Assembly (NCBI RefSeq): GCF_016638705.1
Contig: NZ_CP067341.1
Location: 3,227,501-3,291,500 of the forward strand
Source: Lysinibacillus agricola
GTDB taxonomy: Bacteria; Bacillota; Bacilli; Bacillales_A; Planococcaceae
DNA length: 64,000 nt
Direction of reading: 5' to 3'
A program made the translations under genes and the position numbers. This document shows, piece by piece, positions 20,877-60,073 of this stretch; position 1 is the stretch's first letter, and each line of letters begins with the position of its first letter. The notes beneath the pieces are model-generated. The model worked only from the letters and a program-made list of their open reading frames with translations, did not search any database and was not told where the DNA came from.

Positions 20877-20947
20877 CCTAAACTCTCCTTATGTATAAAA
20901 ATTAATGAGAGCAGAAATAAATCCACTCCCATATTAAGTTATGTATT

Positions 20948-21301
20948 TTATTTATTAAAAAGCTTCTTCATAACTTTTTTAAACTTACCCTTCTTTTTAG
21001 GTTGCTCTACTACTAATTCAGTTTCATCTACTTCAATCTTTCCTTCATTGTTATTATTTGAGTCAGTTTTATCAATCTCAACTAGACGTTCTTGAACATG
21101 TTCTTTATAAGAATCAATAAATTCATCTGCAATCTTTTCTTCAACTTTCTTATCAAACTTTACAAATTTATTATTAAATCGCTCATTACCTAATCCATAA
21201 AAATCCTCAAATGATACTGCACCATTTCCATTATATTGAGGTACAAATTGTACTCCGTTTTGCTTAGCTTCTAACTTGCGTTCTTTACGTGATTTCATCA
21301 T
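20948..21301 (-). CDS. Phage protein, unknown, lysine-rich tail
   Basis: 117 residues with a charged N-terminus (KSRKERKLEAKQNG), an aromatic-rich middle (FEDFYGLGNERFNNKFVKF), an acidic asparagine-rich linker and a strongly basic end (KKKGKFKKVMKKLFNK). AAAGGAG with the AAAATACATAA motif lies directly upstream. Not recognised. Confidence 0.6.
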   Translation of the reverse strand: MMKSRKERKLEAKQNGVQFVPQYNGNGAVSFEDFYGLGNERFNNKFVKFDKKVEEKIADEFIDSYKEHVQERLVEIDKTDSNNNNEGKIEVDETELVVEQPKKKGKFKKVMKKLFNK

Positions 21302-21330
21302 AAGATCATACTCCTTTAATTATGTATTTT

Positions 21331-21609
21331 TTATTTCAATTTACTTGCATCAAAATATTTCCATTTCATATTACTCAACATTAAATCTAATGTATATTTT
21401 GCCTCATCTTCATTCATGTTTGAATTGGCTTTCGTCCATGTATTCACTAGCAAACTATCATCTGTTTGATGTAATATAGCCATCTTACGAACCATGAGCA
21501 ATTCTTCATCTGTTAGATTTAGGTCAGTGTCATTTTTAGTTGAATCAATTAGTTTTACTGCAATACTTTTAATCGTGTTTTCTTCTGAATGAGTAAACTC
21601 ATATCCCAT
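21331..21609 (-). CDS. Phage protein, unknown
   Basis: 92 residues, acidic and helical (EENTIKSIAVKLIDSTKNDT; LMVRKMAILHQTDDSLLV). AAAAGGAGTTAATACT precedes the ATG. Between dUTPase and the basic protein at 20948. Not recognised. Confidence 0.6.
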   Translation of the reverse strand: MGYEFTHSEENTIKSIAVKLIDSTKNDTDLNLTDEELLMVRKMAILHQTDDSLLVNTWTKANSNMNEDEAKYTLDLMLSNMKWKYFDASKLK

Positions 21610-21666
21610 AGTATTAACTCCTTTTTCAAGTTTAAATAGTATCCATGATTTATTGAAGGTTATTTA

Positions 21667-22167
21667 TCACTTTCCACTACTACCTAATGCACCCGTACCT
21701 CGTTCAGATGGAATGCTCAACAATTCCTCATAAGTAATTACCTCTTCTTTAACTTCTGGAACAATTTCAACTGCCATTTGGCATACTGCTTTAGTAATTG
21801 GATATTTAACTTCTGTATCAGTTTCAACTTTATCTTCTACTAACTTAGAAATTACAATATTTTTATTAGTTGTATTTTGTAGCTTCAGGAATACTTCTCC
21901 TCGATAACCACTATCAACCTGACCGCATCGAGGTACTAAACCAATTGATCCTGTTGAACCACGTTCACGTTTAAAGTCTAGTCGGTATTTGTAGCTTACT
22001 GCTGTTGCGATTCCTGTATTAAATGTAACAATTTCATGTGGCTTAATTACTACTTCATCTTCATTGAATAATACATAGATGTCATAACATCCATCTTCCT
22101 TTCGTTTTGTTGGGATAACTGCATCTTCTTTAACCTTTGCGAAAAATAACGTGTCGTTTGAATTCAT
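21667..22167 (-). CDS. dut: dUTP diphosphatase (dUTPase)
   Basis: 166 residues with the five trimeric dUTPase motifs: DGCYDIY (motif I, about 25), RERGSTGSIGLVPRCG (II), QVDSGYRGEV (III), KAVCQMAVEIVP (IV) and SERGTGALGSSGK (V, C-terminal P-loop-like arm). It hydrolyses dUTP to dUMP and pyrophosphate, avoiding uracil in phage DNA and feeding thymidylate synthase. The motif TACATAA then AAAGGAG precede the start. Counterpart of SPbeta YosS. Confidence 0.93.
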   Translation of the reverse strand: MNSNDTLFFAKVKEDAVIPTKRKEDGCYDIYVLFNEDEVVIKPHEIVTFNTGIATAVSYKYRLDFKRERGSTGSIGLVPRCGQVDSGYRGEVFLKLQNTTNKNIVISKLVEDKVETDTEVKYPITKAVCQMAVEIVPEVKEEVITYEELLSIPSERGTGALGSSGK

Positions 22168-22202
22168 ATTGTAACTTCTCCTTTGTTTATGTATTTATTA
22201 AA

Positions 22203-23879: not shown

Positions 23880-23952
23880 TAACATTTCCCCTTATTAAGT
23901 AAAAGTATATTAGCAGTTTTACAACATGCTTAGGTTATGAATTACGCTTATA

Positions 23953-25275: not shown

Positions 25276-25524
25276 TTATTCTTCTTCAAGGAGTTCTTTG
25301 ATAACTTCAATTGGCTGAATTCCATTTAGTTTTACTTGTCCTTCATCACTGTCTATTAGGATTACTGGTACGCTTGATAAACCATACTTCTCAATCGCCT
25401 CTGCATCTTTAGCAATGTCTATTGTATCGAATGGAATGCCCTCTCCTTCTAAGATGATTTGCATTTTATTGCAATCTGGACACATTGGTGTTGAACGTTT
25501 AATTAATGTTAACTTATTTTTCAA
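25276..25524 (-). CDS. Glutaredoxin/NrdH-like redox protein (YosR-like)
   Basis: 82 residues of thioredoxin fold with active site TPMCPDCNKMQ (about 12-22) and the cis-proline segment LSSVPVILID. It probably donates electrons to the phage ribonucleotide reductase next to it. Acidic C-terminal helix (ELLEEE). Start TTG or ATG near 25524 after GGAAAGAGGATGG. Confidence 0.85.
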   Translation of the reverse strand: MKNKLTLIKRSTPMCPDCNKMQIILEGEGIPFDTIDIAKDAEAIEKYGLSSVPVILIDSDEGQVKLNGIQPIEVIKELLEEE

Positions 25525-25577
25525 AATACCATCCTCTTTCCATATTCAATATTTTTATTATTTATGTATTTATTTTA

Positions 25578-26090
25578 TTAATAGGTAAGTAGAATATGCT
25601 CAACAATTTCCTTAGTTGTCATCTTACCTGTATCAAATCGTACTACTTCTAAATCTTTAACTTTACTTAACGATTGCTCATACTTACCTTTAGCATATTT
25701 CAATTTATCTAATGTTACATAATCATCACCGCGATAATTGAATCGTTGCTCTAATACTTCATCATCAGCATATAAATAGATGATTGTTGCTTTATTTTTC
25801 ATTTCTTTTTCTATGTATCTTCGTTGTTCATCTGATAACATTGCAAAATCGTCATACATTTCTGCGTAAACTTCATTGCAAAAAGTGAACCTATCAAATA
25901 TTACATTATCCATCTTAGTAAACTCTAAAAACTTATTAAACAGTTCATCTTGAGTACACTGCGAGTGAGAAAAACTTGATCCTTTCATTACTTTAAACTC
26001 TGTAATGTCAGATAACATTTCAACTAAACTAGTCTTTCCACTACAATCTGTACCAACTACAATATAATTTATAATTACCACCACAATCAT
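25578..26090 (-). CDS. Deoxynucleoside/deoxynucleotide kinase-like P-loop protein (YorR-like)
   Basis: About 160-170 residues. The P-loop is VVGTDCSGKTSLVEML, then IFDRFTFCNEVY (the DRF/DRS dNK-type base-binding segment) and a lid region YLYADDEVLEQRFNYRGDDY. Supplies deoxynucleotides alongside the reductase. The start is uncertain: ATG 26090 has no ribosome binding site, while GTGGTGG at 26084-26078 would fit a rare ATA/ATT start a few codons later. The upstream gene's stop codon overlaps the ATG region. Confidence 0.8.
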   Translation of the reverse strand: MIVVVIINYIVVGTDCSGKTSLVEMLSDITEFKVMKGSSFSHSQCTQDELFNKFLEFTKMDNVIFDRFTFCNEVYAEMYDDFAMLSDEQRRYIEKEMKNKATIIYLYADDEVLEQRFNYRGDDYVTLDKLKYAKGKYEQSLSKVKDLEVVRFDTGKMTTKEIVEHILLTY

Positions 26091-26503
26091 TATGTATTTT
26101 TATATGTATTATTGTTTCCATAATTTAAATCACTTAATTCTCTAGGTTTATATTTCTTATTTGAGCTGCTATTAATTATCTTTCTTACTTCACCCAAAGC
26201 AGTACTTAAAGTTGAAACTGATACCTTATCTTTAGTCAAATCATTTGTCAATTTTACTATTTCATATAAATTCTTAGCTTGTCTTCGTTCGTTACGAACA
26301 ATATGTAATTTTCGATATGCTGTATATCCTTGATTTGCAGGTAATTTAACAAATTCAATGTGATGCAATAAATCTTCTTGTTCTCTATCCTTACAACTAA
26401 TTACTTTTGATAAGCTTGCTACTTCTCTAGGTAACTTTTCTAAAAAGTTCCTTACAAATGTTAAGTCTTTTTCAAATTATTTAATGTCTTCCAATTCAAT
26501 CAC
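26090..26503 (-). pseudogene. Phage gene with in-frame stop near its start
   Basis: From GTG 26503 the frame reads VIELEDIK, then TAA (26479-26477), then continues without another stop as FEKDLTFVRNFLEKLPREVA, SLSKVISCKDREQEDLLHHI and on to SDLNYGNNNTYKNT at 26090. No usable start follows the TAA until a TTG at 26368 that lacks a ribosome binding site. The GTG overlaps the stop of the small gene before it, as expected for a coupled pair. So this seems a 137-residue protein broken by one nonsense change, or sequence error. Helical, basic; function unknown. Confidence 0.6.
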
Positions 26504-27145: not shown

Positions 27146-27913
27146 TTAATTTAAAACTGTAACTAATAGTTTTTGTCTGCCTAAATTTCTTGCTTTAGAC
27201 AATGAGTCTACATAAACGTCTAAATGTCCGTTTACAATTGCTCCACCTCGATCTTCACACACTCTATATCCAAATCCTTCAATATGTATTTTAGTTCCAA
27301 ATGGAATTGACTTGGGACATGCAGCTGTTCGTCCTTCATAAACTGTAGTTCCACTTGCGGTTAAGCCGTAATCTTTGTCACCTCTAGCCTTTCCTGTCGA
27401 TTCCACTCCTGCTGTATAGAAGGTTACATCATAATAAGATTTGCTATTTGCATTTTCACTACTGCCTCTACTAATAATCTGTTGTTGTTTTCCTGTCTCT
27501 ATCTGTTGCTGTTTCTTTCTTACCTCTACTTGCGCTACTCGTACTTGTTCAGCTTTTTTAGCTTCTTCTATTCTCTTGGCTTCAGCTAATTGTCTTTCCC
27601 TTTCAATCCTAGCCAATCGTTCTTGTTCAAGTTTAACCTGTCTTTCTTGTTCTAATTTCTCTAAGCGTTGACGTTCTAACTCCTCTAACTTTTTTCTTTC
27701 CTCCTCTTTCAAACGCTCATATTCCTTATGGAATGATTCAACTTGATAAACGATTGAATTCTTTTTAATTTCCTCCATACGTTTAATAGCATTTGATGAT
27801 TCTGATGTACCTCCTTTATTATCATCTTCTATATCATGTGATAAAAACCAAGCCCATGCTATTGTACATGTGATAATAGTTGGTACTTTTAAAGATTTAG
27901 TTAGTTTGTTCAT
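27146..27913 (-). CDS. yorM: 3D-domain cell-wall protein (YorM-like)
   Basis: 255 residues: an N-terminal hydrophobic segment (VPTIITCTIAWAWFLSH, about 10-26, signal/anchor), a long charged Glu/Arg/Gln coiled coil (about 65-145), then a C-terminal 3D domain (about 160-255) with YDVTFYTAGVEST, GKARGDKDYGLTASGTTV, CPKSIPFGTKIHIEG and GYRVCEDRGGAIVNGHLDVY (the Asp-rich triad). 3D domains occur in lytic transglycosylase-like and resuscitation enzymes. Membrane-anchored wall remodelling is likely. SPbeta has a similar gene in this region. Confidence 0.82.
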   Translation of the reverse strand: MNKLTKSLKVPTIITCTIAWAWFLSHDIEDDNKGGTSESSNAIKRMEEIKKNSIVYQVESFHKEYERLKEEERKKLEELERQRLEKLEQERQVKLEQERLARIERERQLAEAKRIEEAKKAEQVRVAQVEVRKKQQQIETGKQQQIISRGSSENANSKSYYDVTFYTAGVESTGKARGDKDYGLTASGTTVYEGRTAACPKSIPFGTKIHIEGFGYRVCEDRGGAIVNGHLDVYVDSLSKARNLGRQKLLVTVLN

Positions 27914-28033
27914 TTGTTCGCTTATTCTCTACAAAACTTGTCTCATTTGAAGCTCTTAACGACAATCAAATATTGTGCGCTTCTCTTGCAGAAATAAACT
28001 CCCTACCTTTCGTTTTATGTATTTTTTTATTAT

Positions 28034-28468
28034 CTACTTTACCTTGTCATAAATTGTAATATGTGATTTACCATCTACAACTTTAGATGAAATGATATAT
28101 CCACTTTTCAATAACACATTTTGAGTATTTTCAGCATCATATTCATCATTAATCTCTAATGTAAAGCATCCTAATTCGTCTTCAATTGCTTGTTCTAAAG
28201 TGTTGTAGCATACTTTTCTATCCTCAATTTTAATTACATCACCATTTTCAGATAGATAAAACCCATTATTATAAAGTTGCTTTATAAATGATTGCGTATA
28301 CTCATTATCTGAACCGAAGATAACCTTTGAAGGTGTATCCGACTTAAAGCGTGAATATAGTTGCTCTGAAATATTTTCATCATATGTATAATACTTTACT
28401 GAAACGTTCTTAATTTCTACTTTTACATAAGACAGATCATCTGCTGTTAAAATGTTCATTATTGTCAT
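28034..28468 (-). CDS. Phage protein, unknown
   Basis: 144 residues starting MTIMNILTADDLSYVKVEIK; AAGGAGTGATTAT precedes this ATG, so the longer frame to 28498 is not used. Two similar halves are possible (FYLSENGDVIKIED; YIISSKVVDGKSHI). Acidic, soluble. Not recognised. Confidence 0.6.
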   Translation of the reverse strand: MTIMNILTADDLSYVKVEIKNVSVKYYTYDENISEQLYSRFKSDTPSKVIFGSDNEYTQSFIKQLYNNGFYLSENGDVIKIEDRKVCYNTLEQAIEDELGCFTLEINDEYDAENTQNVLLKSGYIISSKVVDGKSHITIYDKVK

Positions 28469-30649: not shown

Positions 30650-30890
30650 ACCCCTGAGCCTCCCTCCAACAGAAAGTCTCCTGTTCATCAGTCAGCTACA
30701 GATCCTAACCTGTACTGGCTAGATCCACAAGGGAAACCGCCTTGCAGATCTAGCCAACACAGGTTGAACGGACTACGCCGACCGACAAACAGAAGACAAA
30801 GGAACCTCTGGGGTGTTTTTAAAAAAAAGTGTTCAACTTGTAATTGCAATTTAGGCCTTTTTAATTTTATGTATTTTAAAATATTACTAG

Positions 30891-31184: not shown

Positions 31185-32009
31185 TTAATACAATCCACCC
31201 TTATTCTTCTTAATTTTATCCACAATAATATCTGCAAACATTTTTGCTTCTTCATTACTTAAACCTAAGGCTTCGGGTTTGATGATTTTGAGAGCCAATT
31301 TCGTTCCTTGCGACAGTTCATTTATTGATACTGAGATATTGAAATTACTATCAATTTCACTCAGCTTATCTTTATAGTATTTCTCCCAATAATCCATTGT
31401 AAATTTAATATTTTTCATAAGCTTATCATGTATTTCTTGTTGCTTATTCTTTTCTTCCTCAATCATCTTCATATGCTCATCTTTACGTTCTTGAATATAA
31501 GCTTTTAAATCAATGTCACCATTTAAGTTATTCTTGTTATCATCTTTAATTTCAGCAAGATCGTTTGTTTGTTCATCAATAATATTTTTCACTTCTTCAA
31601 AGTGTTTATTGATAATGTCTGTTGCTGCGTTGGTATTAGTCAAATCCCATTTATACTTATTTTCATCAAATTGCACTGTTTCACCTTTTACAATCAAGCC
31701 GTTCAATTTATTGTACTTTTCTTCTAACTCATATGTGATATATACTGGATACTCTCCGTAATTAATATTTAATGACAATATATTTCCTGATACGCAGCTT
31801 TTTAATTTCTGTAATGTTTTTAAAGTTTCTTTCTCGCTTTGAATTTTATCGTAACCGTAATGATCATTAGTGACGTAACGTAATAAATTATTTTCTGTAT
31901 TTGTGATCGATTTGTCTAATTTATTCAAAGCGTAGTCTTTAAACTCATTAATCTCTTTCTCGTACTTCTTAGATAAATAGGCATTATAAGCGTTTTGTAA
32001 AATCGTCAT
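31185..32009 (-). CDS. Coiled-coil phage protein, unknown
   Basis: 274 residues, largely helical: two coiled regions (about 12-70 and 140-215 with KAYIQERKDEHMKMIEEEKN) around a small beta segment (YGEYPVYITYELEEKYN). C-terminal IKNKGG-like end (DKIKKNKGGLY). ATG at 32009 after GAATGGAGAAATTA. Not recognised. Confidence 0.6.
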   Translation of the reverse strand: MTILQNAYNAYLSKKYEKEINEFKDYALNKLDKSITNTENNLLRYVTNDHYGYDKIQSEKETLKTLQKLKSCVSGNILSLNINYGEYPVYITYELEEKYNKLNGLIVKGETVQFDENKYKWDLTNTNAATDIINKHFEEVKNIIDEQTNDLAEIKDDNKNNLNGDIDLKAYIQERKDEHMKMIEEEKNKQQEIHDKLMKNIKFTMDYWEKYYKDKLSEIDSNFNISVSINELSQGTKLALKIIKPEALGLSNEEAKMFADIIVDKIKKNKGGLY

Positions 32010-32077
32010 ACATTAATTTCTCCATTCTGTTTATGTATTTTTATTATTTAAATAATATTGTCATTTTATCTAAATTC

Positions 32078-33059: not shown

Positions 33060-33296
33060 TTAAAGCATATTCTTATTGATATCTTTAAAATTGCTAGGTA
33101 ATAATCCATTAGTCTCTAAGTAGTCCTGATTAATTGTATACTTACCAAAAGTACCATCTAACTCTTTGTAATGGTCTTTCAATAGATTCATGATGTCATA
33201 AGTAGTGATACGATGACTTTCTTTAAACAATTTACCTTTAAAATATAGTCCTTCCCAGTCTCCTACTTCTCCAGATACAATGATGAATTGCTCCAT
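33060..33296 (-). CDS. Phage protein, unknown
   Basis: 78 residues: MEQFIIVSGEVGDWEGLYFK, then RITTYDIMNLLKDHYKELDG and YLETNGLLPSNFKDIN. AAAGGAGATTTATTAATC lies upstream. Not recognised. Confidence 0.6.
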   Translation of the reverse strand: MEQFIIVSGEVGDWEGLYFKGKLFKESHRITTYDIMNLLKDHYKELDGTFGKYTINQDYLETNGLLPSNFKDINKNML

Positions 33297-33357
33297 GATT
33301 AATAAATCTCCTTTTATGTATTTGTTTTTATAATACTAATCTTTTATAGAATACTTA

Positions 33358-35490: not shown

Positions 35491-35553
35491 ATTACACCTT
35501 CTCCTTTTCATAATAGGTTTCTTTTATTTAAATCAAATTATGTATTTTCTTGA

Positions 35554-36594
35554 TTAGAATACGCACTCACATGCTATCGTATTTTCTTCTACCTCTACGT
35601 TTGAGTTAATATCTCCTTCTAAAACTTCTAATCGATATTCTTCTAATGAATAAGGTACTTTCTTTTTCTTCTCTTTACCTTTCTCATCAAGCTCACCAGT
35701 AGGAATCAACTTACTTAAAATTGTATAACGTCTACCATTCTTTGCAATTTGGGCATCATTGATTTCTCGCTCTAACTTTTCCATTTTTAAATACCGATCT
35801 TCCCAAACAGCATATAATACAGAGTAATGCCCCATACCTCCCTTAACACAAATTCCTCCACAATTTGCATGAGAAAAACCTTTGACTCCTTTTTCTAAAA
35901 GTTCATTTGCTTTCATATTACTCTTATCTTTAGCAGCTTCTTCAACAGCACTATACATTCTTGGTAATTTAATTCCCCAATTATTCTCGATTTCGTGCTT
36001 CGGATTAGCAGTACAAATAGTAGCTCCTTGGGATTCTAATGATTCATAAATTTCCTTATTGTATACTTTAGGCATTTTATCAGAATTTAGAAAATCTCTA
36101 TTATGTATTAATTGTTTGCCATTTACTGGTTCACCATCAATTTCAGCTATCAGAGGGAAACGTAACTCTACTCCATCCTCAAACACGTCTACATTATGTT
36201 TATAGTTATAAGCCAACCTAGGAGCACGTCTAGCTTCTTTATAATCAATGCCAAAATATAAGATTGGTAAAATACCCTGTTCAATTAATTCTTGTATGTA
36301 TAAAAATGTTTGCTTCATCTTCAACTCTTTACTACATGGAGCTGTTCCGAAGTTTCCAAAATACAAATCCTTTCTAAATATATCCTCTGGAGTACGTCCA
36401 TCTGATTTCTCAGTAATTTCTATTCCAATGTAATCAGCAACTTCTTTCATGAAACGGTAATTGTCTTCATCTTCCCATTTAGTGTCTGTAATTAAGATGA
36501 TCGTATTTTCCTTACCATACTTGTCTACTACATACTTAGTTAACCATGCACTTCCTGCTCCTGTTGAGAACATCACAACGTGTTTTGTTTGCAG
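35554..36594 (-). CDS. PP-loop / PAPS-reductase-like adenine nucleotide alpha hydrolase protein
   Basis: About 346 residues. VVMFSTGAGSAWLTKYVVD replaces the usual SGGxDS PP-loop with STGAGS; then IILITDTKWEDEDNYRF (second strand with acidic residues), GNFGTAPCSKELKMK, and a cysteine cluster HANCGGICVKGGMGHY (about 238-253). The family activates a substrate with ATP; members act in sulfate reduction, tRNA thiolation and DNA phosphorothioation, and phage versions are uncharacterised. The likely start is CTG 36594 (or ATT 36597), since AGGAAGTGG precedes these and the GTG at 36576 would cut off KHVV. Sits between small genes and DNA polymerase. Confidence 0.78.
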   Translation of the reverse strand: MQTKHVVMFSTGAGSAWLTKYVVDKYGKENTIILITDTKWEDEDNYRFMKEVADYIGIEITEKSDGRTPEDIFRKDLYFGNFGTAPCSKELKMKQTFLYIQELIEQGILPILYFGIDYKEARRAPRLAYNYKHNVDVFEDGVELRFPLIAEIDGEPVNGKQLIHNRDFLNSDKMPKVYNKEIYESLESQGATICTANPKHEIENNWGIKLPRMYSAVEEAAKDKSNMKANELLEKGVKGFSHANCGGICVKGGMGHYSVLYAVWEDRYLKMEKLEREINDAQIAKNGRRYTILSKLIPTGELDEKGKEKKKKVPYSLEEYRLEVLEGDINSNVEVEENTIACECVF

Positions 36595-36668
36595 AATAAC
36601 CCACTTCCTTTTTTACATTTAATAATATTTAATTTTTATCAAAATTATGTATTTTGTAATATAAATGT

Positions 36669-44817: not shown

Positions 44818-45960
44818 TTATTCTTTAATTAATTTTAAGAATTTCTCTAAATCTGAAATAGCTTCAATTTGGTTAAAGTCAATATCCAAACCAGAAGCCT
44901 TAACTTTTGCACCTAACGATTTCTTTTTCAGTGGAGTTAATGCTGAAATTAACTTTCCGATCTCGTCACGCAAACTATCTACAGCCACTTCTGGAAGAGC
45001 TTCTTCTTCTTGCGCTTTTTCTTTTTTATTTGTCATTGATTCAGATAATAAGTCTTCATCTTTTTTGATAGAATCTGACATACTATTTCCTACAACATTC
45101 GATTTTTTACCTTTGTTTTTATCAATTACATCTTGCCATAATAAAGGCGAAGGATCGTCAATTACAACATTTTGAGCATAAACTTGTGTTCTATCTTTAC
45201 GCATTACTTGTGCTTTAATTTGTCCCATATCATCTTCGAAATGACGTAGTACTGTAAAGAACTCGTACTCTACTCCATCCCATGTATCAGGGACTTTGCC
45301 AACTTCAACTAATTGCATTTTTCCATCAACATCAACCATTTGCTTTTTAGTTTTCTCACGAGAAGTCACTACTACATATTTATCTGTTCCTGTAATAAGG
45401 CTACGTAACAAATTCTTACCCTTCATTTTGATTTTGTCGTGGTCTTTAAATTCTAATCCTGCAGTGGACTCAGCCACAAACTGCTCTGTAGCTGTTTTAT
45501 CTTGAGATTTCGCTTTTAACTTAGCACGTTTTTCTGATACATTGATTGCAGCAAATTTTACATTATCACTAATTACCGTAATGCCATCTACTACAATTAC
45601 ATCTGCAATGAAAGGATTTCCATCTGCATCGAATACTTCTTCAAGATTTCCTTCATCATCTTCGATATACAATGTCTCCTCTTGCATGGCTTTTTGCGCC
45701 CACTCTTCAACCTCTGAATAAGATGTTGTATAAACAAGTAAAAGGTTGTCTAAGTTAATACCTTGCTCTTCAAGCGATTCAAGGTAGTTATCTACACTAC
45801 CTGCTTCACAATCGATATATAATACACGTAACGGCTTTCCGTTTTCGCCTTTCATCTTCATGAAGTCTAATGCAAATGTAGATTTCCAAGTTCCTGCTTC
45901 ACCAAAATTAAAGAACTTTAAACCTTTTTTTACTGTACTACCACGTTTAGCTTTTGCCAT
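44818..45960 (-). CDS. yorG: RecA-like AAA NTPase (YorG-like, Sak4-type)
   Basis: 380 residues. Walker A is FNFGEAGTWKSTFALDF (about 18-34), LRVLYIDCEAGSVDNYL follows, and Walker B is FIADVIVVDGITVIS (about 110-124). KYVVVTSREKTKKQM and the VEYEFFTVLRHFE strand complete the core. An acidic linker and a C-terminal helical domain (ALTPLKKKSLGAKVKASG) follow. Such phage NTPases (Sak4 group) work with an SSB partner in recombination or fork maintenance; an SSB-like gene is two positions upstream. Confidence 0.85.
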   Translation of the reverse strand: MAKAKRGSTVKKGLKFFNFGEAGTWKSTFALDFMKMKGENGKPLRVLYIDCEAGSVDNYLESLEEQGINLDNLLLVYTTSYSEVEEWAQKAMQEETLYIEDDEGNLEEVFDADGNPFIADVIVVDGITVISDNVKFAAINVSEKRAKLKAKSQDKTATEQFVAESTAGLEFKDHDKIKMKGKNLLRSLITGTDKYVVVTSREKTKKQMVDVDGKMQLVEVGKVPDTWDGVEYEFFTVLRHFEDDMGQIKAQVMRKDRTQVYAQNVVIDDPSPLLWQDVIDKNKGKKSNVVGNSMSDSIKKDEDLLSESMTNKKEKAQEEEALPEVAVDSLRDEIGKLISALTPLKKKSLGAKVKASGLDIDFNQIEAISDLEKFLKLIKE

Positions 45961-46011
45961 GAATAAATTACACTCCTATTAATTATGTATTTTTTATTTT
46001 AATTACAAATG

Positions 46012-46767
46012 TTATGCCTGTTTTATTAAGTCCCACTTATCTTTATACACGTCATATTTACTTCTCATTCCTACGCTAAAATTATAAGATCGAAGTTCCT
46101 TAGAAGGAATAATTAAAGTTTTAAATATTTTCTCATCAAGAACGCAATGTGCTATATAATAATCGCAATTATGCTTTTTACTCCAGATATTAAACTTGAA
46201 GAACGAACCAGTTTTAGTATTATGTAAATTAGATGTCTTAACATCGATTTTAGTTTCTTTATTTACTAATATATCGTATGGATGCTTAACACTCATTTTT
46301 TCAACTTCAAAACCTTTGTTTAATAGCATGTCTAGTGTTTTAAATTCATAATCTATTCCAAAATTGGTTTCAGAAGTTTGTAAATCTAAGTTTAATAAGT
46401 TAGCGTAATATCTATATCCATTACCTTTAGAGATTAATCCTGTTATGCTGTAACCATTCTCTAAAGTTGTTCTAATTTGACTATATGTTGGCATACAGTT
46501 TATCTTTAATATTTCCTGAACCTGTTTGATGCCTCTGATTATCTCTTCTTCTTTTGTCAAACTGGAATCTCTATATATCTTTTTCTTTGTGGGCAAATTT
46601 AATTTTTTCGCCCACAAAGTCATACCACCATTAGAATATATCATTCTTTCCAATTCACGATAATTTGAACGCCTTATTTCTTCAATTGTTGGCATTCTAT
46701 CAATATTTAATTCATCCATTATGTATAAGGTAATATTTTTTATATCTTCTATAATGTCTGTTACCAA
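46012..46767 (-). CDS. Homing-endonuclease-like protein (repeat domains plus PD-(D/E)XK nuclease)
   Basis: 251 residues. Two copies of a helical repeat: DRMPTIEEIRRSNYRELERM then MTLWAKKLNLP, and NCMPTYSQIRTTLENGYSIT then YRYYANLLNL, like the homing-endonuclease-associated repeat. The C-terminal nuclease fold has HPYDILVNKETKIDVKTSNL (D...D-x-K) and HNCDYYIAHCVLDE. Start uncertain: TTG 46767 overlaps the SSB-like stop (TTGGTAA), while ATG 46719 (MDELNIDRM) follows a TACATAATGG copy of the phage motif. It sits alone between YorG-like and SSB-like genes, so it may be a free-standing selfish insert. Confidence 0.68.
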   Translation of the reverse strand: MVTDIIEDIKNITLYIMDELNIDRMPTIEEIRRSNYRELERMIYSNGGMTLWAKKLNLPTKKKIYRDSSLTKEEEIIRGIKQVQEILKINCMPTYSQIRTTLENGYSITGLISKGNGYRYYANLLNLDLQTSETNFGIDYEFKTLDMLLNKGFEVEKMSVKHPYDILVNKETKIDVKTSNLHNTKTGSFFKFNIWSKKHNCDYYIAHCVLDEKIFKTLIIPSKELRSYNFSVGMRSKYDVYKDKWDLIKQA

Positions 46768-47780
46768 GGTAATGAGTCTTCCTCAATCTCAACTTCTTCT
46801 TTTTTGCCTTTGCCCCAAGTTTCAGATGACTTCTGTTGACCTTCTGCATTTAATTTCTCTAACGCTTCATCTACAATTGATTGGGTATACGTTTCAGTAT
46901 CAATTGTTTCTGGATTAGCACCTTCGATTACATATTCACGAGTATATGATGTATTTGCTCTGTCAAATGAATTTGTTTTGCCCCAAGAGTCAGTTTCTTT
47001 TACTTCTTCTACATCAGCCTTATTGACGATTTTCCCACTAACATCAATAGATGTGTATGGTTTTAAATTCTTCTTGATCATATTTGCTAGAGACTTTTCA
47101 TAAACTACAAACTCTACATTTTCGATTGAATTTTGAGTAATGATTTTTGCTTCGATTAAGAATTTATCTCCATTTTCAGCTTTTTCAATTCCGATAAACA
47201 CAATTTTTTGTTTAAAATCTGATAATGATTCAAATCCTTCTTCTTCAAAATCAATATCTTTAGTATTTAAGAATACTGCATCAGCAAGCAGCTTTTTATT
47301 ACGAATGGCATCGCCTTCACGATTTCTAAATGAAGAGTATTCAATTTGACCTTGTATATAAATAGAAGTATCATCACTTAAACCGCTAACTACTTCTTCT
47401 GCTGCATCGTATTGTGCAAATGTAGAAATGACGTTCTTACCTTTCTCATCTTTTTCTAATCCTAAGCGAGTACCGATAACTTTAAATCCTTCTTCTTCGT
47501 AGTTGTATCGATCATCCCAAGGTACAATTTTTTGTTGCGGTTTTTCTCCTTTAACTTCAGACTGTTTGAAAAGATATGCATTCTTACTTTTAAAACCTTC
47601 TACATTAATAAAGACAGTTGATTCTTGGTCTACCTTTACACCGAATTTTGCTGTATTCTTTTCTGCACCTGATGGGAATGTTTGTGGTTTAAGGGCATCT
47701 TCCTTTTTTAATCCTGTTGCAATTCCTCGTAATCGGAAGAATCCTTTTGTTTCCGGTAATCCATGAGTTGTTTTAGCCAT
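46761..47780 (-). CDS. Probable phage single-strand DNA-binding protein
   Basis: 339 residues, two beta-rich halves (KGFFRLRGIATGLKKEDA; ESLSDFKQKIVFIGIEKAEN) that could be OB folds, and an acidic C-terminus EVEIEEDSLPW, which copies the SSB tip pattern of acidic residues then a hydrophobic-Pro-aromatic end. ATG 47780, AAATGGAGAG upstream. First gene of the replication block. The SSB role is inferred from the tail and context, not from a clear family match. Confidence 0.65.
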   Translation of the reverse strand: MAKTTHGLPETKGFFRLRGIATGLKKEDALKPQTFPSGAEKNTAKFGVKVDQESTVFINVEGFKSKNAYLFKQSEVKGEKPQQKIVPWDDRYNYEEEGFKVIGTRLGLEKDEKGKNVISTFAQYDAAEEVVSGLSDDTSIYIQGQIEYSSFRNREGDAIRNKKLLADAVFLNTKDIDFEEEGFESLSDFKQKIVFIGIEKAENGDKFLIEAKIITQNSIENVEFVVYEKSLANMIKKNLKPYTSIDVSGKIVNKADVEEVKETDSWGKTNSFDRANTSYTREYVIEGANPETIDTETYTQSIVDEALEKLNAEGQQKSSETWGKGKKEEVEIEEDSLPW

Positions 47781-47819
47781 TAAATAAATCTCTCCATTTC
47801 AATTATGTATTTTAATTAT

Positions 47820-48000
47820 TAATTATCGAACCAATCACAATGTACCTAACTAAAAGTTTAAATAATATTAGGATTTTACTGAGAACATATGTAATAAGCT
47901 TTGGCGAAACTTATTGTTTGAGAACATGCGAATGTTAGTTATTTTTACCTTCATTAATTTAAGCTTCAATTATTTACATCGCTCAAGGTTCGATAGTTAA
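47820..48000. promoter_or_regulatory. Gene-free regulatory region upstream of the replication block
   Basis: No gene. Direct repeats TGAGAACAT at 47880-47888 and 47919-47927 (39 bp apart) flank an imperfect palindrome with arms AATAAG (47893-47898) and CTTATT (47910-47915) around CTTTGGCGAAA. A possible minus-strand promoter is TTGAAG-N16-TAAAAA near 47960-47935. Either an operator/promoter or an origin-like site for the replication genes that follow. Confidence 0.45.
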
Positions 48001-48006: not shown

Positions 48007-48423
48007 TTACTTTTTCTTGCTTTTATTCTTTTTCCGTAATGCTCTAGCTTGTTTCAATGCTTCTAATGTTATCCATCCGCCATCAATTTTACTGTATGTA
48101 ATAAGAGTTAATGGATGACCATGATGATAATGATACATTTTCTCCTTCATATTGAATAAAGGTGTAGTCATTCCTTTTACATCAATTATCTCTATACTTT
48201 CATCATTATGTATTACTTTGAAATCAGCCTTATATGTAATTGCTCTGTACTTTTTACCATCCTTTTCAAACTTGGATTGTAATTCGAAAGACGGTTGTAA
48301 AGTAAAACCTTTGATCTCACCTTGTGATCGTTGTTGCTTTAAGTATAAATAGTAGTCACGTTCCATTTTCGAGTCAAACCGAATATCATCTTCTACTACT
48401 TTTTTAGCTCCGTACTTGGTCAA
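48007..48423 (-). CDS. DUF1064 phage nuclease-like protein
   Basis: 138 residues: TKYGAKKVVEDDIRFDSKME (Glu in SKMERDYYLYL), LQPSFELQ, KYRAITYKADFKVIHND and IEIIDVKGMTT, which form the E-D-xVK nuclease pattern of DUF1064 (Holliday-junction resolvase/RecU-like, PD-(D/E)XK). Lysine-rich C-terminus (RKKNKSKKK). Overlaps the preceding gene by 4 bp (ATGA). Likely resolves phage recombination intermediates. Confidence 0.8.
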   Translation of the reverse strand: MTKYGAKKVVEDDIRFDSKMERDYYLYLKQQRSQGEIKGFTLQPSFELQSKFEKDGKKYRAITYKADFKVIHNDESIEIIDVKGMTTPLFNMKEKMYHYHHGHPLTLITYSKIDGGWITLEALKQARALRKKNKSKKK

Positions 48424-48794
48424 TCAGCATCACCGTCTACATTTTCTTTTAACTTAGGATTGTATTGAAGAATAGTCACCTTATCCAAAACATGCTGCAC
48501 AATCTCATCTCGTAACTTTTCAATTTGTAGATGTGCATCTTCAATTTTTCCTGTCATTGTAGCTGATAAAGGAACTTCATAATTCACTAATCCATTTAGT
48601 AATGATTTTAAATTACCAAAGTATCCTACATCCTTGTAGTCGTAACTATCAATTAGAGGAGAATTCTTCCCACGACCTTCACGCTTCTGATAACGTTTCT
48701 GCAAAATGATGTTACGTTGATCACTTGTAATTCTGTAGTCTTCAGTTAACTGTACTGCATTCTTTTCTTCCACTGGAGTTTCTACCAATATCAA
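48420..48794 (-). CDS. Phage protein, unknown
   Basis: About 124 residues, LILVETPVEEKNAVQLTEDY, with a basic patch (ILQKRYQKREGRGKN) and a C-terminal helix (EDAHLQIEKLRDEIVQHVLD). I place the start at TTG 48794 because TACATAA and TTAGGTG lie just before; the frame is open to ATG 48836. Coupled to the DUF1064 gene through ATGA. Confidence 0.6.
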   Translation of the reverse strand: MILVETPVEEKNAVQLTEDYRITSDQRNIILQKRYQKREGRGKNSPLIDSYDYKDVGYFGNLKSLLNGLVNYEVPLSATMTGKIEDAHLQIEKLRDEIVQHVLDKVTILQYNPKLKENVDGDAD

Positions 48795-48816
48795 ATCACC
48801 TAACTTTTTATGTATT

Positions 48817-48984
48817 TTATTGATTAATAATATCATTTCTTATAAAATGTAATTCTAGTAGCAGTTTCTTGATCGTCTTATTACACCAAACAACATTATC
48901 ACGAGTAAATTCTTGTTGTTCATTCAATAAGTCTAGCTCGTTCAAAATCTCCATCTCATGTTCATAAGTCAATCTACTGACCAT
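48817..48984 (-). CDS. 55-residue phage protein
   Basis: MVSRLTYEHEMEILNELDLL then NEQQEFTRDNVVWCNKTIKK and LLLELHFIRNDIINQ: almost entirely helical. GGGAGTGATGACG precedes ATG 48984 (another ATG is 6 bp earlier). Its stop codon is followed at once by the AAAATACATAA motif of the next gene. The first gene after the promoter at 49017. Confidence 0.7.
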   Translation of the reverse strand: MVSRLTYEHEMEILNELDLLNEQQEFTRDNVVWCNKTIKKLLLELHFIRNDIINQ

Positions 48985-52578: not shown

Positions 52579-53160
52579 TTATTTTGTAATTGGATTGAAA
52601 TCATTAACTCCATCTAACTTATTAAATTCATTAATAATTGTTTCAACTTGCTTTCTAAACTTCTCTGGAAAACGATCATCTTTTCCGTAGTTTTTATTTA
52701 GATACTTATAATTACTTTCTATCTTTTTATAATAATTTGCCTCTGTAAAAATTCGATCTCCAAACCTATCTCCTCCTAGTAATCTAACAAGAAATCGAAC
52801 ATGTTTATTATCATTCTCTTTAATATACGCATATACGTACTCATGAAATGAACCATCTTCGTCTTTTGAGCACTTACTTGGTAGAGCATATAAAGTATTG
52901 TCGACATGTTTAAACTCATAATCGTCATCAAGACCACTTATAAATTCTGGAATAACAATCTCTACACCATCAATAGTTTTTGTTTTCAGTCTATTCCTAT
53001 TGTATTCATCATGTTCTTCATCCCAAATTTTACTTTTAATCACTCTAATCATCTTAGATAGTTCATTATGTAAATATTTATCTTCTGTTGTAGAAGTTTT
53101 ATATGTATCACGGAAAGACATAATATTATCAAGTTGTTCTTTTAGGTATTCAGTATTCAA
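52579..53160 (-). CDS. Phage protein, unknown
   Basis: 193 residues: an N-terminal helix (LKEQLDNIMSFRDTYKTSTT), a central part (EIVIPEFISGLDDDYEFKHV; KHVRFLVRLLGGDRFGDRIF) and a helical end. AAGAGGAGGTTTAAATTG is upstream. Next to the nucleotidyltransferase-like gene with 30 bp between, so possibly its partner. Not recognised. Confidence 0.6.
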   Translation of the reverse strand: MNTEYLKEQLDNIMSFRDTYKTSTTEDKYLHNELSKMIRVIKSKIWDEEHDEYNRNRLKTKTIDGVEIVIPEFISGLDDDYEFKHVDNTLYALPSKCSKDEDGSFHEYVYAYIKENDNKHVRFLVRLLGGDRFGDRIFTEANYYKKIESNYKYLNKNYGKDDRFPEKFRKQVETIINEFNKLDGVNDFNPITK

Positions 53161-53209
53161 TTTAAACCTCCTCTTTTCGATAATACGTGTATTTTATGTA
53201 TTTTCTATA

Positions 53210-53635
53210 TTAAATAATGTTATTTGGATCTACAGTAATTTTATTTGAATGTGTATCAATTTTGGCATTTTTAAACTTTAGTTTAATATCATCCTCAATC
53301 TTATTCCCATTTCCATCAAACGCACTAATTGATACAAGTAAATCGCCTTCAATTAGTATGTCTTCAATTCTCACATTCACTTCACCAGTTGAGTTAGAAA
53401 TGGTTGGCATAAGTGTGATGAACTCAATATCTTTATTATAAATTTCAAATTTAACATCTACTACTGATGTCATAACAATATTTTTATACTTTGACTTAAT
53501 TTCATCAATAACATTCTTAGTTTTGTATGCAATTACATCATTATTGAAAATGTATTTCTCTTCAGGAACAACAGCCTTATTTATTTGTTGAGTATTATTT
53601 TTCTTTTTGAATTTCTTAAAAATATTTTTAAACAT
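53210..53635 (-). CDS. Phage protein, unknown, beta-rich
   Basis: 141 residues: basic N-terminus (FKNIFKKFKKKNNTQ) then beta strands (VVDVKFEIYNKDIEFITLMP; VNVRIEDILIEGDLLVSISA; IKLKFKNAKIDTHSNKITVD). Similar in flavour to the 32137 protein. AAAAGGAGATGTTACA before ATG. Confidence 0.6.
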   Translation of the reverse strand: MFKNIFKKFKKKNNTQQINKAVVPEEKYIFNNDVIAYKTKNVIDEIKSKYKNIVMTSVVDVKFEIYNKDIEFITLMPTISNSTGEVNVRIEDILIEGDLLVSISAFDGNGNKIEDDIKLKFKNAKIDTHSNKITVDPNNII

Positions 53636-55869: not shown

Positions 55870-55873
55870 CTAT

Positions 55874-56182: not shown

Positions 56183-56203
56183 TACAGATCCCACCTTTCC
56201 ATA

Positions 56204-56455
56204 TCAATATCTTTCCTTATTATTTAATAACTTACCTTTCGTTGGTACGGTTACACTCATCACTCCTTCGATCTTAAGTAACTCATTTTTACTTTTATAT
56301 GTATCAATAAATAAAACATTTAATACTGGTGATTTGTATGTAATTGAACCTAACTTAGATATTTCTTTAATAGTTTCTTTAGTTTCGTATGTAATAATGT
56401 ATTGCTGAGATGTCTTTCTATTGAATCGCATTTCATCTAATAAATGTATAACCAT
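56204..56455 (-). CDS. Phage protein, unknown
   Basis: 83 residues, beta-rich: MVIHLLDEMRFNRKTSQQYI then GSITYKSPVLNVLFIDTYKS and KIEGVMSVTVPTKGKLLNNK. AGGTGTAAAA before the ATG. Not recognised. Confidence 0.55.
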   Translation of the reverse strand: MVIHLLDEMRFNRKTSQQYIITYETKETIKEISKLGSITYKSPVLNVLFIDTYKSKNELLKIEGVMSVTVPTKGKLLNNKERY

Positions 56456-56582
56456 TTTTACACCTCTATTCTTATGTATTTTTAAATTAAAAACATCCGT
56501 TTATTAAAATCCACATTGCTTTAACAGTTAATATTAATTTATAGTATTTACTATTAAAGCAACATAGTCTTCTTTAGTTAAC
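56456..56582. other. Gap with inverted repeat
   Basis: No clear gene; contains one copy of the AAAATACATAA motif (56472) and an inverted repeat TTGCTTTAACAGT / ACTATTAAAGCAA (about 56518-56556) that could terminate the short transcript from 56774. A 19-codon GTG frame exists here without a good start. Confidence 0.45.
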
Positions 56583-56774
56583 TTACCATTCACCTTTTAC
56601 AATATTATCATTAATTGTTTCAGCTTCACTTTCCAGATGAAACATGTCGTTTGCCATTTGAAGATTGATTTCATACATTTGTTGATAACCTATTTCCATT
56701 TGCTTAATCATAGCTTGTCTTAGTTTATCATCTATTATGGGGTCACTACTAACCTGCTTTATCTCTTCATACAT
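56583..56774 (-). CDS. Small acidic helical phage protein
   Basis: 63 residues: MYEEIKQVSSDPIIDDKLRQ then AMIKQMEIGYQQMYEINLQM and ANDMFHLESEAETINDNIVK. GGAGATGTTGACG before ATG 56774 decides the start over an ATG at 56789 that overlaps it. First gene after the promoter at 56900. Confidence 0.65.
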   Translation of the reverse strand: MYEEIKQVSSDPIIDDKLRQAMIKQMEIGYQQMYEINLQMANDMFHLESEAETINDNIVKGEW

Positions 56775-56899
56775 CGTCAACATCTCCATTTCATTATTAT
56801 GTATTTTATTAATTAATCACCGACTTTTGCTACATAACAACTATTTATTTATAATGAGAATGTTATAATTATCATTTCTTCGTTTCATTTGTTAAATAT

Positions 56900-56928: not shown

Positions 56929-56971
56929 GTGCATTTTATGTATTTTATTATTTAATTTACGATATTCGCTT

Positions 56972-57385: not shown

Positions 57386-57427
57386 ATAACTCTCTCCTTC
57401 TTTCTATAATATTCCACTTTTAATTAA

Positions 57428-57610: not shown

Positions 57611-57663
57611 AAATACATTCCTCCTGATTTTTAATATTTTGTAATAGAGTGGTATTATAAAAC

Positions 57664-58634: not shown

Positions 58635-58663
58635 ACTAATTCTCCTCATTATGTATATGTATT

Positions 58664-58837
58664 TTAAAATCCTGTGTATTTCATTAGTATTTGAAATGGA
58701 CGATAATCGTTTGATATGTATCGCATATTACTACCAACTTGCCATCCATTCCTATTACATTCTATAATGTTTTCATGTAACTCAATTTCATTGCTTGCCT
58801 TAAGAATCTTCTTTCCGTTAAATTTATTAAAGTCCAT
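58664..58837 (-). CDS. 57-residue phage protein
   Basis: MDFNKFNGKKILKASNEIEL then HENIIECNRNGWQVGSNMRY and ISNDYRPFQILMKYTGF. AAGAGGATGCAGAT before ATG 58837, with TACATAA 5' of it. The NGWxxxSxxxxxxxxFxxLMKY ending is like small DUF1737/DUF4177-type folds. Function unknown. Confidence 0.7.
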   Translation of the reverse strand: MDFNKFNGKKILKASNEIELHENIIECNRNGWQVGSNMRYISNDYRPFQILMKYTGF

Positions 58838-58897
58838 ATCTGCATCCTCTTTTATGTATAATTAATTTTAAATATATATTTATTTAAATTATGTATT

Positions 58898-59089
58898 TTA
58901 ATATTTAATTTCCTTGACTGCACCTTGTTCCAACATATATTTAGTATAACAAATTGAGTCACAATATAAATTGTGATCATCTACCAGATACTCATCTTCT
59001 CTAGTTATTTCATTTAAGCATTCTTTGTTTACACAACGTCCAATTACATTATATTCTTTAGGTTCAATCCAATTATTCAGTTTCTTCAC
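58898..59089 (-). CDS. Small zinc-finger-like phage protein
   Basis: About 63 residues: KKLNNWIEPKEYNVIGRCVN then KECLNEITREDEYLVDDHNL and YCDSICYTKYMLEQGAVKEI. Four cysteines (RCVNKEC and YCDSIC) form a likely zinc ribbon. Start set at GTG 59089, overlapping the end of the gene upstream; the longer frame to 59143 lacks a ribosome binding site. Confidence 0.6.
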   Translation of the reverse strand: MKKLNNWIEPKEYNVIGRCVNKECLNEITREDEYLVDDHNLYCDSICYTKYMLEQGAVKEIKY

Positions 59090-59312
59090 CCTCACCAATG
59101 TTGCTATTTTCCTGAAGAGGATTATACTCTTTTTGCAGCTCAAAATATTTGAATCCTGCTCCTACTTTAATGTCTACCATCTGTTTAACAAGCCAATCAC
59201 ATCTAGCAATCCAAGACTTTATGCTATCGTCATCATTAAACATCGAACCTTTATCGTATTCATTAATAATTGAATCAAAAGTATTCTTTAAGTTTGTAAC
59301 ATCACTACTCAT
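59073..59312 (-). CDS. Acidic phage protein, unknown
   Basis: 79 residues: MSSDVTNLKNTFDSIINEYD then SIKSWIARCDWLVKQMVDIK and a Glu-rich end. AAAGGTGAGATAAG is upstream. Overlaps the zinc-finger gene by about 17 bp. Not recognised. Confidence 0.6.
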   Translation of the reverse strand: MSSDVTNLKNTFDSIINEYDKGSMFNDDDSIKSWIARCDWLVKQMVDIKVGAGFKYFELQKEYNPLQENSNIGEGEETE

Positions 59313-59341
59313 TCTTATCTCACCTTTATGTATATGTATTT

Positions 59342-59731
59342 TTAAACTACTCGTCTCAATTTAGTCTTCATCATCTTACGACATTCAGTGTCAGCTAATT
59401 TAATTCTATAATGTCGTCTATTCTTCCACTGTATTTTTGAATTTGTTACTTTAAGTAAATGTGCTATGTATCGAAAATCCTCATTATTAAATTTATCATG
59501 CTTAACTCCAAATACAGTAGTTAATGAATCTGTATAAACTGTTACTCCTTTCCATTCTTTCTTTAATACCATCTGTAAAGCCTTAATTATCGTTGTTGCT
59601 TCTGCTTTCATAGAAGATTCATCAAATCCAATAAATGTTCTTCTTTTAATTCTTCTGTTTCCTTTCATGACAAAGTAGTGGTGTGTGGATGATCCATCCT
59701 TGTAACTACTATCTGTATAAATTTTAATCAT
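59342..59731 (-). CDS. RNase H-like protein
   Basis: 129 residues with the RNase H1 catalytic set: IKIYTDSSYKDG (first Asp), ESSMKAEATTIIKALQ (Glu), GVTVYTDSLTTVFGVKH (Asp), RIKLADTECRKMM (last Asp). Basic C-terminus. Could remove RNA primers in phage replication or act on R-loops. AGGTAAATATAT before the start with a TACATAA copy. Confidence 0.85.
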   Translation of the reverse strand: MIKIYTDSSYKDGSSTHHYFVMKGNRRIKRRTFIGFDESSMKAEATTIIKALQMVLKKEWKGVTVYTDSLTTVFGVKHDKFNNEDFRYIAHLLKVTNSKIQWKNRRHYRIKLADTECRKMMKTKLRRVV

Positions 59732-59758
59732 ATATATTTACCTCAGTCATTATGTATT

Positions 59759-59968
59759 TTATGTATTTGCTTCCCATTTAGCTTTTGAATTATCTATAAG
59801 ATCAATCATTTCATCTATCCATCTTTGCGCTGAGTCTTTATCTTTGTAAGTTTTGTCAAATATCCAACCATCCTCATCTCTTATTATTTTAAACCCATCT
59901 CCACGTCTATTAGGAGAAATGAACAGTCCAAAATCTTCATATCGCTTTTTACTATACTTTTTAATCAT
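59759..59968 (-). CDS. Small basic phage protein
   Basis: 69 residues, MIKKYSKKRYEDFGLFISPN then RRGDGFKIIRDEDGWIFDKT and DKDSAQRWIDEMIDLIDNSK. TACATAA then AAAGGTGGTATGTTC precede ATG 59968; the frame to 60010 crosses the motif and is unlikely. The GWxFDxTYxxKxxAxxWIDE unit resembles a double-stranded-RNA-like/AAxxW fold; unknown. Confidence 0.6.
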   Translation of the reverse strand: MIKKYSKKRYEDFGLFISPNRRGDGFKIIRDEDGWIFDKTYKDKDSAQRWIDEMIDLIDNSKAKWEANT

Positions 59969-60073
59969 GAACATACCACCTTTATGTATTTTATTGTTTA
60001 TTAATTTCAAGGTGCGACATTAGAAAACACCCTAATACCACACCCTAACATTAATCATCATTAATTAATCTGA

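Follow-up and report, generated by a model that had tools for sequence, protein, structure and literature searches.

Gene-oriented repeats in an SPbeta-like prophage of Lysinibacillus agricola are probably operators of its MrpR-type master repressor

The analysed window is a stretch of 64,000 nt of the Lysinibacillus agricola genome (contig NZ_CP067341.1; G000:C1:3227501-3291500). It holds part of an SPbeta-like prophage of about 155 kb, and the analysis was extended by the adjoining 113.5 kb. Short asymmetric repeats stand ahead of many prophage genes, mostly in the orientation of the gene that follows. Judged from sequence comparisons, this motif is probably the operator of the prophage's own master repressor, a homologue of MrpR of phage SPbeta, and would have diverged from the SPbeta repeated element (SPBRE). 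MrpR as a repressor and SPBRE as its site are already known. SPBRE was reportedly described in a 1999 paper.

Number, orientation, and distribution of the motif

The motif was searched as an 11-mer (AAAATACATAA), a 10-mer (AAATACATAA), and a 20-bp form (TTAANTAANAAAATACATAA). The flanking bases lengthen the word to about 20 bp, and the full, asymmetric site is approximately TTAAnTAAnAAAATACATAA. The window contains 21 exact copies of the 11-mer between positions 20939 and 59992, all of them on the minus strand, i.e. the gene strand, compared with a mean of 0.38 and a maximum of 3 in 100 dinucleotide shuffles. With up to one mismatch, 46 copies are found on both strands (11.2 expected). The exact 10-mer occurs 26 times on the minus strand, and the 20-bp form with up to three mismatches has 26 matches, again exclusively on the minus strand (1.65 expected). 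An earlier reading of the window from its letters alone (the sequence-only reading) had counted about thirty same-facing copies. The common orientation is borne out, and the number is reached only if near matches are included.

The whole genome of 5.29 Mb contains 68 exact copies of the 11-mer, 51 in the prophage and 17 in the rest of the genome. The motif is therefore not restricted to the prophage, as had been claimed, but it is far from being equally dense in host DNA. In coordinates that continue those of the window, the 51 prophage copies span position 20939 to about 170 kb, 29 on the minus and 22 on the plus strand. The last minus copy is located at 90274, and 20 of the 22 plus copies lie beyond 97 kb. 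The called genes switch strand at about 96-97 kb, and the strand of the motif switches with them. The plus copies at 71706 and 93196 are exceptions, sited in the arm with minus-strand genes. The exact copy at 71706 forms an inverted pair with a minus copy at 71740 in the same gap (L001), and a promoter match comes after the latter.

In the 156 kb prophage stretch, the exact 10-mer was found 79 times, 67 times in intergenic regions and 12 times in coding sequences (11 sense, one antisense). For 62 of the 67 intergenic copies the gene downstream is codirectional, and 55 are located between two codirectional genes. An exclusively intergenic location, which had been assumed, does not hold: in the window, copies at 26090, 49417, 54280, and 59759 are inside called genes. 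The 199 upstream regions contain 56 copies of the 10-mer in forward and one in reverse orientation, compared with a mean of 0.56 and at most three in shuffles of the same regions, so that the density is not that of AT-matched intergenic DNA. A search with the reversed word (61 versus 68 matches) was discarded as a control, since both sides of the motif are rich in A and the word reads nearly alike backwards.

Placement relative to starts and promoters

Genes were called with a simple script instead of a standard annotator, and start positions may be off. In the prophage, the copies have a preferred spacing to the next start: a narrow peak of 10-25 bp is joined by a second, wider group of about 60-90 bp, and further copies are more distant. 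Two classes were defined after the distribution had been seen, class A with 8-30 bp and class B with 50-170 bp before the start. They pool the copies of this prophage and of G049, a prophage-bearing genome of the same genus, and comprise 86 copies (47 A, 39 B). About 29 of the 115 exact intergenic copies of both prophages have other distances and belong to neither class. The largest single group of copies is the one 8-30 bp ahead of a start codon.

The two classes differ in their relation to promoters. Strong sigma-A matches just downstream were found for 19 of the 39 class B copies, versus 5.4 in shuffles, and for six of the 47 class A copies, versus 6.1 in shuffles, i.e. there is no excess at class A. 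Altogether, 61 of the 86 classed sites have no strong promoter match just downstream. A plain sigma-A -10 box, also regarded as improbable in the sequence-only reading, was rejected because promoters are not in excess at class A. When a copy is 40 bp or more from the start and has a strong sigma-A match, the gap between motif and -35 box is 5-7 bp in 9 of 13 cases here and in 8 of 11 in G049. Such copies, 5-7 bp ahead of a recognisable sigma-A -35 box, make up 9 of the 67 exact intergenic copies here and 8 of the 48 in G049. An AAGGAG sequence had been described shortly after the motif at several positions. It is exact at 21320, 22187, and 25241, and only loosely matched at 45983, 58852, and 59982.

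The repressor locus

The assignment to the SPbeta-like phages, which had been proposed from the window alone, is borne out by a SprA-like recombinase, by replication and structural genes, and by an mrpR gene. The left arm encodes a DNA polymerase, a RecJ-like nuclease, a primase, and a helicase, and the right arm a terminase and a portal protein. The product of the mrpR gene (Table 1), which is the proposed binder of the motif, has PDB matches to MrpR (8a0a/8bjv/8bj6) and also to a phi3T-type repressor (9rd5). A match to MrpR_C_cat (3.3e-5) is below the curated cut-off of that Pfam model. In tyrosine recombinases of this fold, the catalytic histidines are located in the C-terminal domain; the homologue here contains only two histidines, residues 62 and 90, and none in its C-terminal domain.

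The gene order yopP-yopQ-yopR is common to this prophage and SPbeta. A promoter-linked copy of the motif at about 64338 (L001) stands upstream of the yopP homologue and is followed after 7 bp by TTTACA-17-TATACT. Since this site precedes the yopPQR genes, it suggests that MrpR is autoregulated.

Comparison with SPBRE of SPbeta

For the SPbeta master repressor MrpR (YopR), ten peaks were reported in chromatin affinity purification sequencing (ChAP-seq), located in promoter regions that hold SPBRE. SPBRE is bound by MrpR in ChAP-seq and in gel shift experiments, the aimR promoter (PaimR) is repressed by MrpR, and the protein has a tyrosine-recombinase fold that has lost its recombinase function (PMC10516654).

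We recovered the SPBRE sequence de novo from the upstream regions of the ten ChAP-target genes. The word, CAAATACAAATAATATGTATA, was found upstream of nine of the ten, always in gene orientation, and the tenth target, yorM, has a copy at 110912, just within the annotated start. The distance between the end of SPBRE and the start is 15-36 bp for six genes (yopM, yonX, yopV, yonP, yorZ, and yorE) and 52, 78, and 111 bp for yonT, aimR, and yosX, respectively. At aimR, SPBRE stands 6 bp ahead of TTGACT-17-TATTAT.

The motif thus shares with SPBRE the repressor family, the gene orientation, the start-proximal and promoter-proximal placement, and a PaimR-like spacing to the -35 box. In contrast, its sequence is another one, and its 51 (11-mer) or 79 (10-mer) copies compare with ten ChAP peaks in SPbeta (PMC10516654). 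The exact SPBRE core AATATGTATA has only 2 + 1 copies in this prophage, versus 10 plus and 4 minus copies in SPbeta, and therefore the motif would be at most a diverged counterpart of SPBRE, not SPBRE proper.

The word follows the repressor in two contrasts

The first contrast is between SPbeta and SPbetaL5, for which the identities are 98.7% for the DNA polymerase and 98.4% for the portal protein, but only 29.5% for MrpR. SPbetaL5 has YonO split into two pieces, with identities of 97.8% (residues 1-625) and 78.9% (residues 632-821). The SPbetaL5 repressor is of the phi3T type; its tblastn score with the MrpR of the window equals that of phi3T. The oriented upstream word of SPbetaL5 is AGAATAAAAATAAAAT. 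In SPbetaL5, it stands in place of SPBRE at all six aligned SPBRE loci (yosX, yonT, yorZ, yorM, yorE, and yonP). Between the -10 box and the start of yonT, the two phages hardly differ in sequence; at yorE and yorM, the alignment of the flanks is poor. Of 98 gene pairs that are reciprocal best matches, four have SPBRE in SPbeta and the other word in the SPbetaL5 partner, one and six have only one of the two words, and 87 have neither (p = 2.8e-4). No exact SPBRE core was found upstream of the SPbetaL5 partners in these 98 pairs. A strict SPBRE version was used for this comparison, as the loose pattern with three mismatches matches both strands about equally in unrelated genomes.

The phi3T repressor gene has been confirmed by a deletion that yields a lytic phage (PMC10769878). 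PDB entry 9rd5 matches SPbetaL5 MrpR over the full length, from which we infer that its chain is the phi3T repressor. The chains of 9rd5 and 9rgl, both full-length matches of SPbetaL5 MrpR, are labelled merely "Core-binding (CB) domain-containing protein". A paper on the two entries was not found in the literature searches made; the structures show that other groups are working on the phi3T-type repressor.

The second contrast is between this prophage and G049. Here the YonO-family polymerase (21.9%), the helicase (22.8%), the terminase (27.3%), and the portal protein (27.5%) are far diverged, whereas the identities are 53.1% for MrpR, 62.2% for YopQ, and 67.2% for YopP. The word AATACATA is common to both, being present in 62 upstream regions here and 47 in G049. 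Of 80 ortholog pairs, 16 have it in both genomes, eight only here, two only in G049, and 54 in neither (p = 3e-9). Conservation is high for some other genes, e.g. thymidylate synthase with 96.9%, and the contrast therefore speaks of modules and not of whole genomes.

In the first contrast, DNA polymerase and portal are nearly identical and the RNA polymerase mostly so, and another MrpR goes with another word; in the second, RNA polymerase and portal are strongly diverged, and a related MrpR goes with the same word. In both, the word therefore follows the repressor, and not the RNA polymerase, the host, or the gene set.

Other phages and genomes with MrpR

The comparison was widened to 30 phage records with an MrpR match, of which SPbetaL5, E3, Perkons, Sundance, the Staphylococcus SPbeta-like phage, phi116, and FADO were analysed, plus SPbeta by accession; for KKP_3916 and phi36, the gene locus alone was fetched. 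Of 17 genomes with a match, this one included, ten were fetched around the gene; those left out are G029, G040, G044, G045, G133, G234, and G067. Motif finding by expectation maximization (EM) first settled mostly on the ribosome binding site, and the sequences were then cut ahead of it. One choice of motif model used the forward minus three times the reverse score, and its forward/reverse ratios are biased upward. Six further phages and the genome G164 have oriented words of their own, some of them weak; the EM words of E3, Perkons, G164, and SPbeta are weak or mixed.

Loci from IMG/VR, with up to 10 kb on each side and many close relatives among them, comprised 19 with SPbeta-type, 29 with phi3T-type, and three with own-type MrpR. 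On the mrpR strand, each of the 29 phi3T-type loci has 8-12 phi3T-type words, versus zero or one on the opposite strand. The three own-type loci (MrpR identities of 100, 52, and 51%) have nine copies of AAAATACATAA each, compared with zero or one in the other 48 loci; the one with 100% identity may be nearly the same phage.

Several side observations were made in this sample. In Bacillus phage FADO (L130-L137), the oriented word TGATACAAATAATGATATAA stands in places between the -35 and -10 boxes. Psychrobacillus phage Perkons (L102-L108) has two oriented words, ATAATTAAG and AATACATA, which are at times fused. In Mammaliicoccus phage phi36 (L092), the MrpR match spans two neighbouring genes that are annotated as integrases, and the gene therefore appears interrupted in the record. 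Seven genomes (G052, G056, G054, G037, G039, G047, and G066) have MrpR-like genes with YopQ-like neighbours, in stretches of lower GC content with long genes.

Proposed mechanism and alternative explanations

The MrpR-type repressor would hold the SPbeta-like phage in lysogeny by occupying asymmetric sites of about 20 bp. At class B sites, the bound repressor would block initiation, as at PaimR of SPbeta. At class A sites, it would most likely block RNA polymerase arriving from upstream and thereby silence operons at many points, because class A has no promoter excess and most intergenic copies are located between codirectional genes. Upon induction, MrpR would leave and all sites would open together.

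A block of this kind is known from the stoperators of cluster A mycobacteriophages, i.e. 20-30 repressor sites that are oriented with transcription and mostly not associated with promoters (PMC6550527); reversal of a site abolishes repression (PMC9283540). The array described here likewise consists of tens of asymmetric sites over the phage genome, with one main orientation relative to transcription. As in L5 and Bxb1, the sites are found in promoters and short gaps, and the words are phage-specific and vary with the repressor (PMC6550527, PMC9283540). In contrast to cluster A, the candidate repressor is of the MrpR type and not a protein with helix-turn-helix and stoperator domains, the copies are more numerous, and the elongation block is proposed by analogy. 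The term "stoperator" is absent from the text of the paper on SPBRE and MrpR (PMC10516654).

The motif could instead be the promoter of a YonO-type single-chain RNA polymerase of the phage, with RNA that begins right after it and keeps the ribosome binding site. The right arm does encode a YonO-family protein of 924 aa (L003:6172-8946, plus strand; phrog_8308 7e-146, Pfam RdRP 2e-16), probably a diverged single-chain RNA polymerase, and SPbeta YonO likewise belongs to phrog_8308. The position and orientation of the motif would fit, such a promoter would also be phage-specific and oriented, and as of 2017 no sequence had been established for the YonO promoter (PMC5467207). However, the word does not track the polymerase: it differs between SPbeta and SPbetaL5 in spite of their YonO identities, and it is the same here and in G049 with polymerases that share 21.9%. 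Copies also occur among the replication genes and small genes of the left arm, the motif stands ahead of sigma-A promoters at a preferred spacing, and one start upstream of yonK has been suggested for the late operon of SPbeta (PMC5467207), all of which renders this explanation quite unlikely. An element that helps translation, or an RNA processing signal, would explain why copies cluster most sharply 10-25 bp ahead of starts, beside the ribosome binding site. The sequence-only reading had favoured a parallel to the start-associated sequence (SAS) of mycobacteriophages; the SAS of cluster K has the sequence GGGATAGGAGCCC and has been proposed to be linked to translation (PMC3203893). Both are oriented repeats just ahead of starts. 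In contrast to SAS, the word here is AAATACATAA, it stands ahead of the ribosome binding site, and many copies are linked to promoters: 39 of the 86 classed copies are 50-170 bp from starts, 19 of them directly ahead of a strong promoter match. Furthermore, SPbeta and SPbetaL5, both recorded from B. subtilis and with much of the gene set in common, differ in their words at the same loci, which disfavours a role on the side of the ribosome or the host. We regard this explanation as very improbable.

The sites might be those of another phage regulator from the repressor operon, as yopP and yopQ vary together with mrpR, or of an activator. Activators commonly bind just upstream of the -35 box, where part of the class B copies are found. 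For the SPbeta equivalent, however, both ChAP-seq and gel shift experiments show binding of MrpR, which also represses PaimR (PMC10516654), so that such a regulator seems unlikely. It is very improbable that the copies merely reflect AT-rich gaps or are landing sites for recombination, an option that gained no support: motif and gaps are both AT-rich, but 56 copies were observed versus 0.56 in shuffles of the same gaps, with only one in reverse. Among the options of the sequence-only reading, a phage DNA-binding protein is thus the one favoured, in the form of the MrpR-type repressor.

Several results weigh against an MrpR operator. SPbeta itself has few sites (exact core 10 plus, 4 minus), and an array of 50-80 copies far exceeds this studied case. 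Promoter matches upstream of the motif were found for 28 of the 47 class A copies, versus 24.3 in shuffles, so that class A copies may also have promoters upstream, and such matches are in excess for class B (32 of 39, versus 22.0). The joint variation of yopP, yopQ, and mrpR means that the binder could be another gene of that operon. The first contrast is not clean, as the identity of YonO drops to 78.9% in its C-terminal fifth. The SPbetaL5 word is present in three of the 98 SPbeta upstream regions, and at SPbeta yosX (NC_001884, ~129180-129240), it adjoins SPBRE with one mismatch, perhaps as the trace of a former repressor type. SPBRE, searched with a two-mismatch pattern, separates the IMG/VR loci poorly: the 19 SPbeta-type loci have 2-4 copies and all other loci 0-2. 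Of the phi3T-type words, 0-5 were counted in the SPbeta-type loci. In a Mantel test with 11 phages, the similarity of the motifs was not correlated with the identity of the MrpR proteins (rho 0.07, p = 0.31); when the pair of this prophage and G049 was left out, rho was 0.01. The two pairs with more than 40% MrpR identity, i.e. this prophage with G049 and phi116 with the Staphylococcus phage, have the top motif similarities (0.92 and 0.69; the next value is 0.65). Lastly, no array was found in the seven genomes named above, with MrpR-like proteins of about 25-33% identity; perhaps they represent another class of element that uses an MrpR-like repressor.

Implications

About ten bound sites are known for MrpR and SPBRE in SPbeta; here, 50-80 sites apparently of the same kind were found, many without a recognisable neighbouring promoter, and other MrpR-bearing phages have oriented words of their own as well. 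Literature searches, made without preprints and most subscription papers, yielded no title or abstract on an array this large, on the MrpR words of other phages, or on stoperators in SPbeta-like phages. With slightly less than even confidence, we propose that SPbeta-like phages of Firmicutes have genome-wide stoperators based on a repurposed tyrosine-recombinase fold, with dozens of one-way repressor sites, which would stop initiation as well as elongation, would have arisen independently of those of L5, and would have one word per immunity group. If so, immunity specificity could be read from the sequence, and an elongation stop by a repressor with a recombinase fold would become testable. 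An exchange of mrpR would have to be accompanied by the rewriting of dozens of sites, which raises the question of how an array is rewritten; a laboratory host already offers SPbeta and SPbetaL5 as a pair with which to address it.

Sites and genes in the window

The individual sites and the genes of the repressor locus are compiled in Table 1.

Table 1. Genes and motif sites in the window; distances in bp are from the motif to the start of the gene given, as called
Feature	Position	Strand	Remarks
MrpR-type master repressor (yopR homologue), proposed motif binder	60791..61768	-	Pfam MrpR_N_CB 1.4e-15; PDB matches
YopQ homologue	61768..63114	-	directly upstream of mrpR; phmmer of SPbeta YopQ 4e-25; phrog_5732
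YopP homologue, integrase-like	63182..63991, continuing beyond the window to 64255	-	Phage_integrase 5e-9; phmmer of YopP 1.8e-14
Large serine recombinase, SprA-like	16932..18755	-	Resolvase, Recombinase, Zn_ribbon_recom domains; phmmer of SprA 1.3e-7; taken as left end of the prophage
Class B site, TTAAATAATAAAATACATAA	26678..26697	-	6 bp ahead of TTGTAA-16-TATAAT
Class B site, TTAAATAATAAAATACATAA	49051..49070	-	6 bp ahead of TTGTAA-16-TATAAT
Class B site, TTAAATAATAAAATACATAA	56936..56955	-	7 bp ahead of TTGAAA-17-TAAGAT
Class A site	21320..21339	-	18 bp, gene 20948-21301
Class A site	22187..22197	-	19 bp, gene 21667-22167
Class A site	32031..32050	-	21 bp, gene 31185-32009
Class A site	33314..33333	-	17 bp, gene 33060-33296
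Class A site	45983..46002	-	22 bp, gene 44818-45960 (380 aa; weak Sak4/UvsX-like match)
Class A site	47803..47822	-	22 bp, gene 46761-47780
Class A site	48808..48827	-	19 bp, gene 48420-48788
Class A site	56472..56491	-	16 bp, gene 56204-56455
Class A site	56797..56816	-	22 bp, gene 56583-56774
Class A site	59750..59760	-	18 bp, gene 59342-59731; overlapped by a second copy at 59759-59769
Class A site	59982..60001	-	13 bp, gene 59759-59968
Site	20939..20958	-	62 bp, thymidylate synthase gene 20013-20876; overlaps the end of gene 20948-21301
Site	25562..25581	-	37 bp, gene 25276-25524
Site	26090..26109	-	at the start of gene 25578-26090, within called gene 26090-26368
Site	28015..28034	-	101 bp, gene 27146-27913
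Site	30867..30877	-	no close codirectional called gene downstream; next start 1444 bp off
Site	35538..35557	-	47 bp, gene 35251-35490
Site	36645..36664	-	71 bp, gene 35554-36573; adjoins the 3' end of DNA polymerase gene 36669-39854
Site	53194..53213	-	33 bp, gene 52579-53160
Site	58889..58908	-	upstream of small open reading frame 58664-58837

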